Positions 3,397 through 31,117 of a stretch of DNA of 64,000 bases are shown here, piece after piece (positions within the stretch are counted from its first letter, which is position 1; every line of letters starts with the position of its first letter). Position numbers and translations under genes: made by a program. The stretch covers positions 1,674,001 to 1,738,000 of the forward strand of contig NZ_LT992502.1 of assembly GCF_900324475.1 (NCBI RefSeq), read 5' to 3'. This DNA comes from Enterobacter bugandensis (lineage in GTDB: Bacteria; Pseudomonadota; Gammaproteobacteria; Enterobacterales; Enterobacteriaceae). The notes beneath the pieces were generated by a model. That model was given only the letters and a program-made list of their open reading frames with translations. It had not been told where the DNA came from and did no database searches.

Positions 3397-4650
3397 ATGT
3401 GTGACCAGCACCATGCCGACAGGCATATATTATGCTCGCAATGCGATATGCTCGTGGCGTTGCCAGAGCTTGGTCACGGACATAAAGCCCAGTGTCCACG
3501 CTGTGGCGCGACGTTGACAACCGAGTGGGACGCGCCGCGGCAGCGTCCCACCGCTTACGCGCTGGCAGCACTGTTCATGCTGCTGCTCTCCAATCTCTTC
3601 CCCTTCGTCTATATGAAGGTGGGCGGGATGACAAGCCAGGTGGATCTGCTTGAAATCCCGGGCGTGATGTTCTCGGAAGATTACGCCAGCCTCGGCACCT
3701 TTTTTCTGCTATTCGTCCAGATAGTCCCGGCGTTTTGCCTGGTCATCATCCTGCTGCTGGTTAACCGCGTCAGGATGCCGTCACCGCTGAAAATCCGGCT
3801 CGCGCGCATCCTTTTTCAGCTCAAAAGCTGGGGGATGGCCGAGATCTTTCTCGCAGGGATACTGGTCAGTTTCGTGAAGCTGATGGCGTACGGCGACGTG
3901 GGGATAGGCAGCAGCTTTATTCCCTGGTGTCTGTACTGTGTCCTGCAGCTGCGTGCTTTCCAGTGCGTGGACAGGCGCTGGGCCTGGGACGATATCGCCC
4001 CGGCTCCGACGCTCGCGCAGACGGTGAAGGTCGGCGTGCCGGGTATCCGCCAGGGGCTCCGTTCTTGTCCGTGCTGTACCGCCGTGCTGCCCGCCGATCT
4101 TGAGGTTTGTCCGCGCTGCGAAACGAAGGGCCATGTTCGCCGTAAAAATAGCCTGCAGTGGACGATGGCACTGCTGGTCACGTCCGTCATGCTGTATCTG
4201 CCCGCTAATATTCTGCCGATTATGATCACCGATTTGCTCGGCGATAAAATGCCCTCGACGATCCTCGCCGGGGTCATACTGCTGTGGAGCGAAGGATCCT
4301 ATCCTGTCGCCGGCGTGATTTTCATCGCCAGTATCATGGTGCCCACTTTAAAAATGATCGCCATTGCCTGGCTCTGTTGGGATGCAAAAGGCCACGGAAA
4401 ACGCGACAGTGAACGCATGCATCTGATTTACGAAGTGGTCGAATTTGTCGGTCGTTGGTCAATGATCGACGTGTTTGTGATTGCCGTTCTCTCTGCGCTG
4501 GTGCGGATGGGCGGTTTGATGAGTATTTATCCCGCGATGGGGGCTTTAATGTTTGCACTGGTGGTGATTATGACCATGTTTGCGGCCATGACCTTCGACC
4601 CTCGTTTATCGTGGGATCGTGAGCCTGAATCAAGCCATGAGGAAGAGTAA
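3397..4650 (+). CDS. pqiA: PqiA, intermembrane lipid transport membrane protein
   Basis: This 417-residue inner-membrane protein has two duplicated halves. Each half starts with a cysteine-rich zinc-ribbon-like segment (CSQCDMLVALPELGH...CPRCG near residue 14, and SCPCCTAVLPADLEVCPRC near residue 222) followed by four or so hydrophobic helices. Family knowledge: PqiA works with the MCE protein PqiB and lipoprotein PqiC in lipid transfer across the periplasm, and the operon responds to paraquat through SoxRS in E. coli. The gene sits 12 bases after uup and 4 bases before pqiB, so it is clearly part of an operon. Confidence 0.95.
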   Translation: MCDQHHADRHILCSQCDMLVALPELGHGHKAQCPRCGATLTTEWDAPRQRPTAYALAALFMLLLSNLFPFVYMKVGGMTSQVDLLEIPGVMFSEDYASLGTFFLLFVQIVPAFCLVIILLLVNRVRMPSPLKIRLARILFQLKSWGMAEIFLAGILVSFVKLMAYGDVGIGSSFIPWCLYCVLQLRAFQCVDRRWAWDDIAPAPTLAQTVKVGVPGIRQGLRSCPCCTAVLPADLEVCPRCETKGHVRRKNSLQWTMALLVTSVMLYLPANILPIMITDLLGDKMPSTILAGVILLWSEGSYPVAGVIFIASIMVPTLKMIAIAWLCWDAKGHGKRDSERMHLIYEVVEFVGRWSMIDVFVIAVLSALVRMGGLMSIYPAMGALMFALVVIMTMFAAMTFDPRLSWDREPESSHEEE

Positions 4651-25483: not shown

Positions 25484-25571
25484 GGAAGTGTGGCCGAGCG
25501 GTTGAAGGCACCGGTCTTGAAAACCGGCGACCCGAAAGGGTTCCAGAGTTCGAATCTCTGCGCTTCCGCCA
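25484..25571 (+). tRNA. serT: tRNA-Ser(UGA), serT copy 1
   Basis: The 88-nt gene includes an encoded CCA. Acceptor GGAAGTG pairs with CGCTTCC (one U-G wobble), the anticodon loop is CTTGAAA with anticodon TGA, there is a long class II variable arm (CGACCCGAAAGGGTT), and the T arm is CAGAG-TTCGAAT-CTCTG. As far as I recall it is identical to E. coli serT, and it sits downstream of yccA as in E. coli. Confidence 0.97.
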
Positions 25572-25576
25572 GATAT

Positions 25577-25610
25577 AAACCCCAGCTTACTCGTTAAGCT
25601 GGGGTTTTTC
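25577..25610 (+). terminator. terminator after tRNA-Ser copy 1
   Basis: The stem AACCCCAGCTTA / TAAGCTGGGGTT is followed by TTTC TTTTT. Confidence 0.88.
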
Positions 25611-25638
25611 TTTTTGCGCGTATCTGTAAACCTGACGT

Positions 25639-26475
25639 CTATGAGCGGATAAAGGCCAGAATGTCCGCGTTAATGGTATCCGCGTGGGTGGTATGCATCC
25701 CGTGCGGGAAGCCCGGATAGATTTTCAGCACGCTATTCGCCAGCAGCTGGTCCTGCAGAAGGGCGGCATTCTTATAAGGCACGACCTGATCGTCATCCCC
25801 CTGCATCACCAGAACGGGAACCGTAATGGTTTTCAAATCCTCTGTCTGATCGGTTTCTGAAAACGCCTTAATTCCCTCATAGTGGGCTTTGGCGCTGCCG
25901 ATCATGCCCTGACGCCACCAGTTCTGAATGGTGCCCTGTGAAACCTCGGCCCCCGCCCGGTTAAACCCATAAAAAGGACCGCTGGCGACGTCGAGATAAA
26001 ACTGGGCGCGATTCGCGGCCAGCGCTTTACGGAAGCCGTCGAAAACCTCTACAGGTGTCCCGCCAGGGTTGTTTTCTGTTTTCACCATCAACGGTGGAAC
26101 GGCGCTCACGAGCACCGCTTTGGCAACGCGCCCCTGCGGCTGGCCGTACTTCGCAACATAGCGGGCCACCTGGCCACCGCCGGTAGAGTGGCCGACGTGC
26201 ACCGCATTGTGCAGATCCAGGCTTTCAACCACGGCCGACGCGTCAGCCGCATAATGATCCATATCGTGCCCTTCGCTGACCTGGTCCGAACGCCCGTGAC
26301 CACGGCGGTCGATTGCGATAACGCGATAGCCTTCCGCAAGGAAGAAGAGCATCTGGTTATCCCAGTCATCGGCACTCAATGGCCAGCCGTGATGGAAAAC
26401 AATGGGCTGAGCCTCTTTCGGACCCCAGTCTTTGTAGTAAATATTGACGCCGTCTTTCGTTGTTACGAATGCCAT
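25639..26475 (-). CDS. alpha/beta hydrolase of the non-haem chloroperoxidase/arylesterase group
   Basis: The 278-residue alpha/beta-hydrolase carries the triad Ser97 (VGHSTGGG), Asp near 228 (QGDDDQVVP) and His258 (GFPHGMH). The oxyanion motif [12 protein letters not shown] is typical of non-haem chloroperoxidases such as CPO-F and of related esterases with perhydrolase activity. No signal peptide is seen, so it is cytoplasmic. It lies on the same strand as the dlt-like operon but 225 bases beyond it and behind a hairpin, so a link to that operon is uncertain. The natural substrate cannot be told from sequence. Confidence 0.85.
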
Positions 26476-26660
26476 ACCGCAGACTCCTCTGTTAAAGACG
26501 CAACGATCGCTGGCTGAGCGCAGAGCGAACCATTATTGTCTTCATGATGTTGGCTTGTTTAGTTTCCCGTACCGACAGTACCCCTAAAGTGTAGGAGAAA
26601 TAGTAAAACCGGTGGGTTTCATTCGTGTGAATGGTATCCAGAAGGGGAAAGCGAATGATG

Positions 26661-26684
26661 GGCTCTGGAGGGAGTCCCAGAGCC
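26661..26684 (-). terminator. hairpin after the dlt-like operon
   Basis: GGCTCTGG and CCAGAGCC form an 8-bp stem just downstream of the acyl-carrier gene. There is no proper T run, so it may be only a weak terminator or an mRNA end stabiliser. Confidence 0.4.
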
Positions 26685-26700
26685 ATCAGAGGAGGGGGCG

Positions 26701-26922
26701 TTAACGGTTCTCTTCAATATAACGGGCGAGATCGGCCGGGGTTTTCAGCACCGTCGCCACGTCGGTAGGCGGGATCATACAGCCGTAAACGTCCTGCACC
26801 TCCAGCACCATGTCGACTGCCAGAATGGAGTCGAGAATGTCGGATTCAATCAGCTCATCGTGAAAGCCAACCTTGCGGGATAACACTTTTTCAAACAGGG
26901 CGAGAATATCGTGTTCCATCAT
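26701..26922 (-). CDS. dltC: DltC-like acyl carrier protein
   Basis: The 73-residue carrier protein has the phosphopantetheine attachment serine Ser32 in ESDILDSILAVDMV, the DS motif expected at the start of helix 2. It is slightly shorter than Gram-positive DltC (about 78). Family knowledge: DltC carries D-alanine from DltA to the membrane acyltransferase DltB. It is 14 bases downstream of the DltA-like ligase and is the last gene of the operon. It is assigned as DltC by context; a different loaded amino acid or acyl group is possible. Confidence 0.8.
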   Translation of the reverse strand: MMEHDILALFEKVLSRKVGFHDELIESDILDSILAVDMVLEVQDVYGCMIPPTDVATVLKTPADLARYIEENR

Positions 26923-26936
26923 TTTTCCTGGAATAA

Positions 26937-28370
26937 TTAATGTGTGCGGGCGTAAGCGTCCAGCAGCTTGCGGTCAATTTTGCCGTTAGGATTTAGCGGC
27001 AAAGCGTCTTTTACGATAATTTGTGAAGGCACCATGTAGTGGGGCACCACGTTTGCCAGCGAGGTTTTGATTGCCTCCGGTGCCAGCTCCGTCACGCAGA
27101 ACGCGGCGATGCGCAGCACGCTGCCGCAGGGTTTCATCAGCGGCATCACCACCGCTTCGCTGATGCCGGACATGGCCAGCAGGCGGTTTTCAATCTCGCC
27201 GATCTCGATGCGGTAGCCATTCAGCTTGACCTGGCTGTCGTTGCGGCCCTGGCAGTAGATGAGCCCGTCTTCATAACCCAGATCGCCGGTCCGGTAGCCG
27301 CGGAACGCATCATTTTCCCGACGCAGCAGTTTTGCCGCGTTCTCCTGCGGCAGGCCTAAATAGCCGCGCATGACGTTTTTGCCCCAGATAATCAGCTCGC
27401 CCTCGGCGGAAATTTCCATTCTGCTGTCCGGCATCATCACGCCCACCGGCAGCACCGCGCTGTCGCTGTTGAGGATCTCATCCGTGATCTCAACCACGGT
27501 TGTCGCAATGGTCGCTTCCGTTGGGCCATAGGAGTTGATGATTTTGGCCTGCGGGAAACGGCGGCGGAGCTGTTTCACCAGCGCTTTATTGAGCACTTCA
27601 CCAATGAAGATAAAGACGTTGAGTGCAGGCAAATACTCGCTGTTAAAGTGCGGAGAAAGCAGTTGCTGGTAGGCAAAAGAGGGGGTGGAAACCCAGGCGG
27701 AGACCGCGTTGCTTTGCAGTCGCTCGAGCCAGTTCTCTTTCTGGATATCCTCTTTGGCATTCAGCACGATGTGGCCTCCCATCGCCAGGTTCGCCAGCAG
27801 AGGGATCAGGGAGAGGTCAAAGCTGAACACCGCGTGGTTCATCAGCACCGGTTTTTCCGGCAGCGAAAAGTCCTGGCTGACCCACTTCATGAAGTGCCAT
27901 ACGCTTTCACGTCCAATCTGCACGCCTTTCGGTTTTCCAGTGCTGCCTGAGGTAAACATGATATAGGCCAGATCCTGCTCCTCCAGCACCTTGCCCGCCT
28001 CGCCGGTGGCGATGAACTGCCGCGTCGCCACGTCGTAGTAGTAAGGGGCGCCGGTCAGGTTGCAGATCTCGCGAAGCCGCTCCTGCGGGTAGATGCAGTC
28101 CACCGGGATGTACGGAATGTTGTGCAGCAGGCAGCTATAGATTGCCACGGCAAACTCGGCCTGCTGATGGCCGTACAGCACGATCGGCGTACCGTCTGCG
28201 GGCTGGCATCGTCGATAACGCTCTGCCCAGTTCGTCACGGCAGAGGAAAGCTGGAGCCAGCTTAAGGTTTCGTCGCTGCCGCTGATGGCCAGCTGCTGCG
28301 GGGAGGCGGGATCGCGCAGTGCCGCACGCAAGAAATCCTGCAGTTCCTGAAGATCGGAGTGATTTTTCAT
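26937..28370 (-). CDS. dltA: DltA-like adenylation enzyme (D-alanine:carrier-protein ligase type)
   Basis: The start at 28370 overlaps the stop of the upstream gene as ATGA and gives 477 residues; the frame continues upstream but only as a shadow of dltB. It is an ANL-superfamily adenylation domain: core A3 YIMFTSGSTGKPKG, A5-like INSYGPTEAT, A7 GYRTGDLG, and the C-terminal catalytic lysine in PLNPNGKIDRKLL. Reaction by family: ATP-dependent activation of D-alanine and loading onto the DltC pantetheine. The amino-acid specificity needs a binding-pocket comparison that I cannot run. Confidence 0.82.
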   Translation of the reverse strand: MKNHSDLQELQDFLRAALRDPASPQQLAISGSDETLSWLQLSSAVTNWAERYRRCQPADGTPIVLYGHQQAEFAVAIYSCLLHNIPYIPVDCIYPQERLREICNLTGAPYYYDVATRQFIATGEAGKVLEEQDLAYIMFTSGSTGKPKGVQIGRESVWHFMKWVSQDFSLPEKPVLMNHAVFSFDLSLIPLLANLAMGGHIVLNAKEDIQKENWLERLQSNAVSAWVSTPSFAYQQLLSPHFNSEYLPALNVFIFIGEVLNKALVKQLRRRFPQAKIINSYGPTEATIATTVVEITDEILNSDSAVLPVGVMMPDSRMEISAEGELIIWGKNVMRGYLGLPQENAAKLLRRENDAFRGYRTGDLGYEDGLIYCQGRNDSQVKLNGYRIEIGEIENRLLAMSGISEAVVMPLMKPCGSVLRIAAFCVTELAPEAIKTSLANVVPHYMVPSQIIVKDALPLNPNGKIDRKLLDAYARTH

Positions 28371-29488
28371 AGAGGTGACATTCCACTGAAGATGTAAAGG
28401 GATCCTGCGGCGCTTCCCAGCGTCAGAATTCGTCCCAAAAACGCAACGGCCGGATACTGCAATCCGCGGTGTAACGTTGGGCTGCGTTTGGCTGACCACA
28501 GCAGCATGTTGTGCGCGACGGAAATCGCGCCAAACAGCGCGCCGCTGATGACGTAATGGCGTTCCAGGCCATTCCACGCCCCCATGCAGAACAGGGTGCA
28601 AAAAATACCGATATTTTGCGCCAGCGTTTTGTTCTGGCGGAAAAAGTTAGACTTCATCAGATTCATATAGACGGGCATAAAGACCACGTCGCGCAGCCAT
28701 TCGGACAGGCTGATGTGGAAGCGGCGCCAGAAATCCTGCGGGTTCTTCGCAAGAAGCGGCATGTTGAAGTTTGCCGGAATATTCAGCCCAAACAGCCGAC
28801 CCGCGCCGATGGCCATATTGCTGTAGCCCGCAAAATCGAAGTACAGATAGGCGCTGTAGGCAATCGACATCACCACGCCCACGGTCAGGGTAAACGGCTT
28901 ATGGCTCCAGGGCTGCACGACGAGCGAATCGATCAGCATGGCAAACAGGAACTTCTGAATGATGCCGGTAATAATTTGCTCCAGCGCCGTTAAAAACTGC
29001 TCGCGGTTCAGGACAAATGCCGGCTTATTCACATCGCTCATCCATGTCCGCCAGCGATACATCGGGCCGGCCAGAATAATAAAGGGCATAAAGAGATAGC
29101 AGAAATAGTGCAGGAAATTCTGGCCCTCTTTTTTACTGCGATACAGCAGTACATCCACAGCGCGGAAGGTCATAAAAGAGAGACCGATTGTGCCGAGGTG
29201 ATAATTAAAATGTAATTTCACCAGAACCAGAGGCAGCAGCGTTAAAACGACCGCCTGCCAGGTTTTTAATCTGCCTTTTTCTTTTAACGTGGCGACAAGA
29301 TAAAACCAGCAAAAGACGGCTACGGGAACACCGTAATTGCCCTGAAAAATATAACTCCAGCCTAATGCTGTCACCACGGATAAGGAAACTAGCCAGGTCA
29401 GACGGTGGCGTAAAACACGATTAACCATCGCAAACGCCAGCGCGGATGAAAATAAACAGACAAAAAATATTCCTGAGCTGTACATCAT
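28367..29488 (-). CDS. dltB: DltB-like MBOAT membrane acyltransferase
   Basis: The 373-residue polytopic protein has about ten hydrophobic helices. MBOAT features are YLYFDFAGYSNMAIGAGRLFG, NPQDFWRRFHISLSEWLRD and the invariant histidine His311 in WNGLERHYVISG. Family knowledge: DltB passes D-alanyl groups from DltC on the cytoplasmic side across the membrane. It sits 6 bases after the small dltX-like gene and overlaps dltA by 4 bases. It could in principle be an alginate-type O-acetyltransferase (AlgI), but adjacency to dltA and dltC argues for a Dlt role. Confidence 0.82.
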   Translation of the reverse strand: MMYSSGIFFVCLFSSALAFAMVNRVLRHRLTWLVSLSVVTALGWSYIFQGNYGVPVAVFCWFYLVATLKEKGRLKTWQAVVLTLLPLVLVKLHFNYHLGTIGLSFMTFRAVDVLLYRSKKEGQNFLHYFCYLFMPFIILAGPMYRWRTWMSDVNKPAFVLNREQFLTALEQIITGIIQKFLFAMLIDSLVVQPWSHKPFTLTVGVVMSIAYSAYLYFDFAGYSNMAIGAGRLFGLNIPANFNMPLLAKNPQDFWRRFHISLSEWLRDVVFMPVYMNLMKSNFFRQNKTLAQNIGIFCTLFCMGAWNGLERHYVISGALFGAISVAHNMLLWSAKRSPTLHRGLQYPAVAFLGRILTLGSAAGSLYIFSGMSPL

Positions 29489-29494
29489 TTCGCC

Positions 29495-29614
29495 TCAGAA
29501 TTTTTGATATTCAAAATGCAGCTGCATACTCATGCTGTCATCGACAGCGGTCCATGCAACGACGGTGATCGCCAGCAGTAAATAAAGGCAAAAAAGACGG
29601 ATCGCGATTTTCAT
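29495..29614 (-). CDS. dltX: DltX-like small membrane protein (39 residues)
   Basis: This ORF, too short for most gene finders, encodes 39 residues: a short basic start (MKIAIR), one hydrophobic helix (LFCLYLLLAITVVAWTAV) and a short tail ending HFEYQKF. The tail ends in F-x-Y-x-x-F, the C-terminal motif described for DltX in Gram-positive dlt operons, where the tyrosine has been implicated as the acyl acceptor beside DltB. It overlaps the dltD-like stop by one base (TAATG) and ends 6 bases before dltB, so it is translationally embedded. I regard it as real on motif plus position; protein-level support is not available here. Confidence 0.75.
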   Translation of the reverse strand: MKIAIRLFCLYLLLAITVVAWTAVDDSMSMQLHFEYQKF

Positions 29615-30756
29615 TATTTAAAACTCTGTGCAATAAAGCGAAGCATTGGCACCCAGGCCAGTTCGGTAGGGTGCAGACGATCCCAGTTCCAGCCGTTCTG
29701 ATACGGCATGGCGTACATATCCAAATACGGGATCTGGTTCTCTTTCAGAATGGTTTGAATCTGCTTATCGAACGGGCGGAAGGTGTCGGTATTGTAAAGC
29801 GCCCAGGGGTTAACCGGGTCGACGATAGCAATCACCTGCACGTGATGCGCTTTCAAAAGCTGAACGGTTTTCCTGAACGCGGCGAACTGCCCCGGCACCA
29901 CCGGCGTGTCATCCCACTGCTGCGGCTTACCGTCCTCGTCGTAAATCGTTTTGTCCATCCACAGCGTGGCCGCGCTCTGATGGCGCTTTTTATTCAACTC
30001 GCGGGCATTCGCCAGCGCTTTATCCCAGTCAGGGGAAAGACGGGCGGTTGGCTGCTGAGGCCAGGGCTGCGCCGTCTGTGGCCTGATGTTGAGCAGCGAC
30101 AGCCAGTCGTTTTTAATCAGGGTGCAGAAGTTTGCAAACTGAAAACTCAGCTCGTCCCATACCAGCGCCGGATGCCAGCCATACACACGCATTTGCCCGA
30201 AGGTTAAATGGCTTATCTCTTTCGCATCAATATGCTTCAGGTAATTAACCAGGAACGGGCGCGCCTGCGGATCCTTCATCAGGGGATTAAAAATCGAGCC
30301 CGGAAAATTATCCGCATAGATAGCGGGCGGCAGGCCTTTTGAATAAAAGCCGTCAGGCGCCAGAAGCAGCACCACTTTGCTGTTTGCGTTAAGGCTATCT
30401 TTAAAACGCGAGAGAAGTAAAAATTGCGTTTCGTCATCGACAAACGCATCGCCATAGGCCACGACGGGCTGGTGCAATTGCTTATTAAAATAATTAAATA
30501 CGGCGTAATGTTCCTCTTCTGAGGTGGCGACCTCAGACGCACCAAGGAAGAAAATAGCATTCCCTTCTAAAGCATGGGAAATTGTGGCTATTTTTTCCGC
30601 CTGTTCTTTTGTCGTCCCTGCCATAGACTTGATCAGCGGCTGGAATTTAAGCGGCGGATCAAAGCTTGTCACCAGCGGGTGAAAACTCAGGACTAAAATG
30701 GCCAAAACGGCCATCAGGATATGTAAGCAAAACGTATTTTTGATTTTCATCATCAA
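29614..30756 (-). CDS. dltD: DltD-like SGNH hydrolase/acyltransferase
   Basis: The 380-residue protein has a single N-terminal membrane anchor (residues about 10-30) and an extracytoplasmic domain. Catalytic residues typical of DltD are visible: Ser74 in FFLGASEVA, and Asp359 and His362 in WDRLHPTEL. Family knowledge: DltD transfers D-alanine from the DltB/DltX complex to the cell-surface polymer outside the membrane. It is first in the operon (D-X-B-A-C), unlike the usual X-A-B-C-D order. In this Gram-negative host the acceptor is unknown; lipopolysaccharide, as reported for Bordetella, is one option. Confidence 0.8.
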   Translation of the reverse strand: MMMKIKNTFCLHILMAVLAILVLSFHPLVTSFDPPLKFQPLIKSMAGTTKEQAEKIATISHALEGNAIFFLGASEVATSEEEHYAVFNYFNKQLHQPVVAYGDAFVDDETQFLLLSRFKDSLNANSKVVLLLAPDGFYSKGLPPAIYADNFPGSIFNPLMKDPQARPFLVNYLKHIDAKEISHLTFGQMRVYGWHPALVWDELSFQFANFCTLIKNDWLSLLNIRPQTAQPWPQQPTARLSPDWDKALANARELNKKRHQSAATLWMDKTIYDEDGKPQQWDDTPVVPGQFAAFRKTVQLLKAHHVQVIAIVDPVNPWALYNTDTFRPFDKQIQTILKENQIPYLDMYAMPYQNGWNWDRLHPTELAWVPMLRFIAQSFK

Positions 30757-30988
30757 CCAGTAAGGCGCTATGACAGTAATGCGTTAAAACCCGCATTACC
30801 CGGATTTATTACCATTACAAAACACATGGCCGTCTATTTTTTTTGGCATTCTATACCACGGTGATTTAAAAGGATGAGCGTTGCTGTGTAACGGTATGTA
30901 CAAGGGGGGAAGGGGGGAGGGCAGGAAAGCGTCCGGGTGACTTTTTGCGCAGTCAAACGCCTGCAGGCAAAAATAGAAAAATTCCTGC

Positions 30989-31017
30989 TTTACAAGGCGC
31001 TAATAGATGTTTATAGT
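30989..31017 (+). promoter_or_regulatory. sigma-70 promoter of tRNA-Ser copy 2
   Basis: TTTACA, 17 bases, TATAGT, 12 bases before the tRNA. The -35/-10 hexamers and spacing equal those of copy 1, and the sequence from TGTTTATAGT to CGCCTCACT is nearly identical. Confidence 0.75.
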
Positions 31018-31029
31018 GCGCCTCACTTT

Positions 31030-31117
31030 GGAAGCGTGGCCGAGCGGTTGAAGGCACCGGTCTTGAAAACCGGCGACCCGAAAGGGTTCTAGAGTTCGAA
31101 TCTCTACGCTTCCGCCA
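31030..31117 (+). tRNA. tRNA-Ser(UGA), second copy
   Basis: This 88-nt gene differs from copy 1 at three positions: acceptor base 6 is C instead of T (wobble to Watson-Crick), and the closing pair of the T stem is T-A instead of C-G, a compensated change. The anticodon is TGA and CCA is encoded. The structure is fully kept, so the gene is probably functional. Confidence 0.96.

Follow-up and report, generated by a model that had tools for sequence, protein, structure and literature searches.

The window is a stretch of 64,000 nucleotides of the Enterobacter bugandensis genome (contig NZ_LT992502.1, positions 1,674,001 to 1,738,000 of the forward strand), and it carries a dlt-type operon composed of the genes D, X, B, A and C at positions 26701-30756 of the minus strand. 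The five open reading frames, their strand and order, and the length and FEYQKF ending of X (39 residues) are all as the initial annotation had them. Of the overlaps of 1-4 bases that it gave, those of D/X (1 base) and B/A (4 bases) are present, whereas X/B and A/C are separated by gaps of 6 and 14 bases; D does come first, but this is the ordinary order in the enteric clade and not an unusual one. A decaying operon was considered and rejected, the window copy being open throughout its length. The scan for a promoter and a terminator at the operon gave results at chance level. The features of the operon are the following:

29614..30756, minus strand: D, a DltD-like SGNH protein (Pfam DltD, 5.8e-24), 380 codons from TTG, with an ATG directly after
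29495..29614, minus strand: X, a one-helix peptide of 39 residues with an acyl-shuttle motif at its end (conservation in relatives, purifying selection)
29498..29515, minus strand: residues 34-39 of X, FEYQKF, with the acceptor Tyr36 at 29507-29509; invariant except for K/Q at position 38 in 36 distinct enteric X proteins
28367..29488, minus strand: B, a DltB-like MBOAT of 373 residues without a shuttle motif of its own (Pfam MBOAT, 2.3e-10)
28715..28717, minus strand: His258 of B on re-entrant loop 2 (Streptococcus His289), kept (alignment)
28571..28573, minus strand: Asn306 of B, at the site of the TM6' catalytic His (Streptococcus His336; alignment)
26937..28370, minus strand: A, a DltA-like adenylating enzyme of 477 residues (Pfam AMP-binding, 5.5e-49)
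27603..27605, minus strand: Ile256 of A, at the site of the D-alanine-selecting Cys of DltA (alignment)
26701..26922, minus strand: C, a DltC-like carrier protein with Ser32 for the phosphopantetheine arm (Pfam PP-binding, 8.7e-9)

The initial annotation had made its reading depend on the conservation of the small frame and its terminal motif in relatives, and this conservation was found. A scan of named loci with the patterns KNPQDFW and FCMG[AI]WN gave 62 loci, of which 59 were counted, L133-L135 being other MBOATs; the 59 include the decayed copies L106, L131 and L132, in which only the motif end is open. An open frame ending in [FY]EYQ[KQ]F stands before dltB in 58 of these 59 loci (40 FEYQKF, 10 FEYQQF and 8 YEYQQF), and the one locus without it, L130, lies on a contig that breaks off within dltB. 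The same holds for all 30 loci first taken from the family sample, where the frame ends in FEYQKF or FEYQQF; in one of them (L027) the upstream part of X is disrupted. Loci bearing X come from Enterobacter, Lelliottia, Phytobacter, Kosakonia, Cedecea, Pectobacterium, Dickeya, Buttiauxella, Photorhabdus, Candidimonas, Paralcaligenes and others. Regarding variation, in 48 enteric sequences, which represent 36 distinct X proteins, residues F34, E35, Y36, Q37 and F39 never vary, with two codons used at each, and the proportions of synonymous (pS) and nonsynonymous (pN) differences pooled over seven relatives are 0.244 and 0.046, indicating purifying selection; the enteric set used for both results is without the X of L106, L122-L129, L131 and L132. 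Comparative evidence of this kind indicates that X is a genuine gene, and a chance open reading frame was rejected because X is kept while its synonymous sites vary. In its anatomy X corresponds to DltX, having one helix (seen in the sequence and, at residues 2-23, in the model) and a C-terminal [FY]xYxxF.

The protein B has the fold of DltB and scores above the gathering score of Pfam MBOAT, which places it in this superfamily, and in the tree it lies in the same clade as the DltB of Dickeya and Pectobacterium. The TM6' His of MBOATs is stated to be invariant in the available text of PMC12979248, and the catalytic pair, as published in the part of the literature at hand, consists of this His and an Asn, Asp or His on re-entrant loop 2. 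The residue that the initial annotation took as catalytic in B, His311, was rejected: it lies opposite Tyr341 of Streptococcus DltB, whose His336 faces Asn306, it is Asn in Buttiauxella and Photorhabdus, and it is His in 70 of the 116 aligned homologues (those of at least 330 residues). The TM6' site itself is Asn in 113 of 114 readable homologues, with one Asp and six unreadable, a count that covers the 120 top-ranking of the 340 homologues that a profile built from Asn-type sequences found at E up to 1e-20. The sequence with Asp (P0083, WDG) is grouped among the Asn-type sequences in the tree. The named-scan loci count for X and not for Asn, as the pattern FCMG[AI]WN presupposes it. The TM6' His is present in 8/8 Gram-positive DltB and in 44/44 other MBOATs read, the latter being relatives drawn by searches with B or the DltB model; the survey of other MBOATs covered 57 loci, comprising 44 with His, eight with Asn (from seven genomes) and five without a readable open reading frame. 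The loop-2 residue, His258, is His in 116/116 homologues, 8/8 Gram-positive proteins and 43/43 other MBOATs. Positions near Asn306 are also changed, Tyr345 being replaced by Ser315 and a further His by Phe319. As the alignments have it, the published pair is inverted in B, with the loop-2 His kept and Asn on TM6'. One origin of the change from His to Asn suffices in the tree, in which long branches meet and the midpoint root serves for drawing only. We found no report of a TM6' Asn in the open-licence literature searched, which is weak evidence of novelty, as subscription papers are mostly outside it; the kind of system is already known, and its active centre is a variant of which no description was found in the literature searched.

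The change in B is accompanied by a particular residue in X. The acceptor Tyr of X is preceded by Glu in 58 of 58 loci of the Asn-type clade, and the eight Asn-type MBOATs of the survey have no shuttle-motif end of their own. In the His-type MBOATs the motif is the C-terminal end of the MBOAT itself (43 of 44 read), and the residue before Tyr is I (29), L (13) or V (1); the Gram-positive DltX ends in FIYNEF in 4/4. The co-occurrence of Asn in B and Glu in X makes it tempting to see the acceptor peptide as an aid to catalysis, but it counts as one event on account of its single origin.

The catalytic residues listed by the initial annotation for the two other transfer proteins (Ser74/Asp359/His362 in D, Ser32 in C) do not vary in nine-sequence alignments. 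Those of D align with the solved DltD 6o93 (1.6e-8), and the window D shares 97% identity with its Enterobacter chuandaensis counterpart. The D of L109, L112 and L113 ends in F[VI]YE[QNH]F followed by a single residue, which looks like the shuttle motif; this likeness is probably due to chance, because the window D ends in FIAQSFK. The nearest solved chains of A include DltA (2.6e-81), and the Asp holding the amino group is kept, as is the lysine. The Cys site of DltA is Ile in 51/51 enteric rows, window included, and the nearby Met site is Ile in 48 of 49 readable enteric rows; the Cys is kept in 5/5 Gram-positive, 4/4 Photorhabdus and 5/5 Alcaligenaceae rows. This Cys is reported to select D- over L-alanine and, together with the Met, to line the methyl cavity (PMC8972799 and PMC4176424, in the portions available). 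As the selecting Cys is Ile in enteric A, D-alanine is an uncertain cargo for this clade and is here an assumption. The Dickeya paper, in its accessible part, speaks of the alanylation of an unknown substrate (PMC3544676).

Published accounts of dlt genes exist for Dickeya, Pectobacterium and Photorhabdus, as far as the available text of PMC3544676 and PMC5541007 goes. The Pectobacterium and Dickeya cassettes have the same D-X-B-A-C order as the window, with DltB 79-83% identical and Asn in B. The Photorhabdus cassette has the order C-D-X-B-A, a DltB 46-47% identical, Asn in B and the DltA Cys kept. Unlike these three, the window copy sits between two tRNA-Ser genes. An operon of this kind was reportedly named dltDXBAC by Pandin et al. 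in 2016; the name had no match in the open-licence literature searched. The Bordetella dra system and its Alcaligenaceae relatives have Asn at the TM6' site of DltB, as in the window; the relatives have the order C-D-X-B-A and, unlike the window, keep the DltA Cys, and in Candidimonas and Paralcaligenes X ends in YEYQQF in 5/5 loci. The dra system reportedly attaches D-alanine to a component of the outer membrane (PMC9410548, available in part). The Gram-positive dltXABCD shares the five parts, the small membrane peptide with an FxYxxF end and the DltB fold, and differs in the TM6' His (8/8), the FIYNEF end of X (4/4) and the DltA Cys (5/5); its mechanism is described as involving an acyl-Tyr in the motif of X (PMC12148441, in the text at hand). 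On two Gram-positive plasmids (L172 and L176), dltB is the sole annotated dlt gene of the stretch examined, and in L176 it adjoins a bactofencin gene. According to the accessible part of PMC12148441, systems of the PatA/AlgI type, an MBOAT with an SGNH partner, also use an acyl-Tyr shuttle in a C-terminal hexapeptide, take acyl-coenzyme A as donor without a carrier protein, and like other MBOAT pathways work without a DltX-like microprotein. They differ from the window in having the motif within the MBOAT, I, L or V before the Tyr, and His on TM6'.

The locus is best read as a Dlt-type cassette for envelope aminoacylation whose transfer centre has been remodelled. This is supported by the gene content and order common to Pectobacterium and Dickeya, the motif in 58 of 59 loci, the selection on X, the DltB fold, the triad of D and the serine of C, and also by the reported dltB phenotypes of Dickeya and D. 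solani (PMC3544676 and PMC10931765) and the acyl-Tyr mechanism described for Gram-positive Dlt (PMC12148441). Its clade-specific traits are His258 kept on re-entrant loop 2, Asn306 in place of the TM6' His and Glu35 beside the acceptor Tyr of X. Observed are the parts with their order and joint conservation, together with the motif and the residues of the active sites, and every chemical step is inferred from the Gram-positive Dlt system. By this analogy, A would adenylate a small amino acid and attach it to Ser32 of C, whose carrier arm would enter B from the cytoplasmic side. On the periplasmic side, B would then place the aminoacyl moiety on Tyr36 of X, and X would pass it to Ser74 of D, which would deliver it to the acceptor. 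At the centre, we would guess that His258 acts as the base and Asn306 positions the thioester, with assistance from Glu263 or Glu35. Overall, the operon is probably a Dlt-type cassette that moved as a unit between genomes and places an amino acid outside the inner membrane, lowering the negative charge of the surface. The complete cassette with a small gene carrying an acyl-shuttle motif, as proposed in the initial annotation, is supported; the observation made there is confirmed in part and sound apart from one wrong residue (His311 of B), and the interpretation stands in part.

Several results weigh against this reading. None of the NCBIfam curated Dlt cut-offs is reached: A scores 374.7 of 559.85 (TIGR01734), B 200.1 of 375, C 22.1 of 68 and D 50.5 of 150 bits. 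The X of the window matches no Pfam family, and Pfam DltX (PF12459) is matched at E 10 neither by it nor by the X of Photorhabdus and Candidimonas, while the control sequences of S. aureus (2.1e-14) and Listeria (1.2e-15) do match. The alignment of the X profile with DltX by hhalign has a probability of 8.6, so that the relation to DltX is one of anatomy, the profile searches being unsupportive of common descent. The window departs from Gram-positive Dlt at the TM6' His (Asn306) and the D-alanine-selecting Cys (Ile256), and B lacks the His that PMC12979248, in its available part, calls invariant for MBOATs. In the fused X-B model, the predicted local distance difference test score is below 50 at the motif (residues 25-42) and near His258 (285-294 and 300-302), and the model therefore places neither Tyr36 in the tunnel nor the two catalytic residues in a defined geometry. 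The Dickeya dltD mutant is reported to be as resistant as the wild type (PMC5541007, accessible in part), and this speaks against D being the sole final step.

The cargo is the point at which an alternative has most to say for itself. The enteric D-X-B-A-C clade may use the same shuttle to export another amino acid, for instance glycine, with the pocket of A rebuilt; the replacement of both cavity-lining residues by Ile in the enteric rows, the retention of Cys in the other three groups and the reported role of that Cys in deciding between D and L (PMC8972799 and PMC4176424, as available) make this possible, though not probable. The conserved Asp and lysine of A point the other way, a bulkier residue may still admit D-alanine, and the Met is also changed in Photorhabdus and Alcaligenaceae. 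A wider proposal, that the proteobacterial Dlt forms a separate class of MBOAT in which the loop-2 His does the work beside an Asn on TM6' and the peptide's own acidic residue, the enteric cargo having been switched as well, is rather doubtful. As to B, the change to Asn306 could be neutral, the loop-2 His having always been the main worker and the mechanism being unaltered. His258 in every aligned row and the sufficiency of one origin agree with this, but the TM6' His is called invariant in the papers and is kept in 52/52 His-type MBOATs read (8 + 44), and the neighbouring positions changed along with Asn306; we regard it as unlikely. The loss of the TM6' His, with Ser315 and Phe319 in place of Tyr345 and the further His, could even mean that B is a non-catalytic conduit that presents the loaded carrier arm to X, the chemistry being done by another group. 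However, His258 never varies, the strong conservation of B comes with coordinated changes, and the Dickeya dltB mutant has a phenotype, although a conduit would yield one too, and such a role for B is very improbable.

Regarding distribution, a dlt-type B occurs in 38 of the 392 genomes sampled from the family and in 7 of 394 genomes of an order-wide sample, all seven from the same family (E <1e-80 in both). The class-wide search with a distant homologue found it in one of 369 genomes, which is the nearest one itself. The search of E. coli, made for near DNA matches only, gave none to the cassette. In the window, the cassette and an alpha/beta hydrolase gene lie in an island (25484-31117) between two tRNA genes:

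25484..25571, plus strand: tRNA-Ser(TGA), one flank of the island (ARAGORN)
31030..31117, plus strand: tRNA-Ser(TGA), the other flank, identical to the first copy at 85/88 bases (ARAGORN and comparison)

Beyond the left tRNA-Ser copy are an open reading frame of 542 residues and a homologue of yccA with 84% identity to that of E. coli. The position between two tRNA-Ser(TGA) genes is shared by L065 and by 6 of 26 named loci scanned (five Enterobacter and one Lelliottia); the other 20, including L113, labelled Enterobacter, have no tRNA in the stretch examined. A fixed neighbour that would name the acceptor was sought and rejected: beyond A, B and D, no cluster of open reading frames of at least 90 amino acids occurs in more than three genus labels. 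Copies of the cassette are also found on plasmids, namely Enterobacter cloacae pGX1Z-1L (L166, 9001-13053), typed conjugative and with IS1 and IS903B on either side, and a plasmid of Klebsiella electrica DSM 102253 (L167, 9001-13053). On K. pneumoniae pS90-2.2 (L168, 6001-8242), C, A and part of B are at the record start, and roughly 2 kb away, at 3979-4266, there is a gene with the annotation pmrD (polymyxin B resistance protein). X is annotated as a hypothetical protein on the plasmid copies. Frames are broken in several genes of the copies in Symbiopectobacterium genomes (L060/L131 and L061/L132) and Enterobacter sp. EA-1 (L062/L106). The loci L109, titled Chryseobacterium, and L093, titled Serratia marcescens, hold the enteric operon, with neighbours that match Enterobacteriaceae and Symbiopectobacterium loci.

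In the part of the literature at hand, MBOATs, among them DltB, hedgehog acyltransferase and Porcupine, are said to rely on an invariant TM6' His. A natural clade that lacks this His, and for which a loss-of-function phenotype has been published in Dickeya, would reveal the true role of the His and whether the acceptor peptide contributes to catalysis. The Dickeya dltB mutant is reported to be polymyxin-sensitive (PMC3544676), and in the literature searched an antimicrobial-peptide phenotype of a proteobacterial dlt cassette is published for Dickeya only; dltB is also reported to matter for D. solani on the plant (PMC10931765, in part). The cassette may be another possible way for some enterobacteria to lower their surface charge, with a cargo that is now uncertain.

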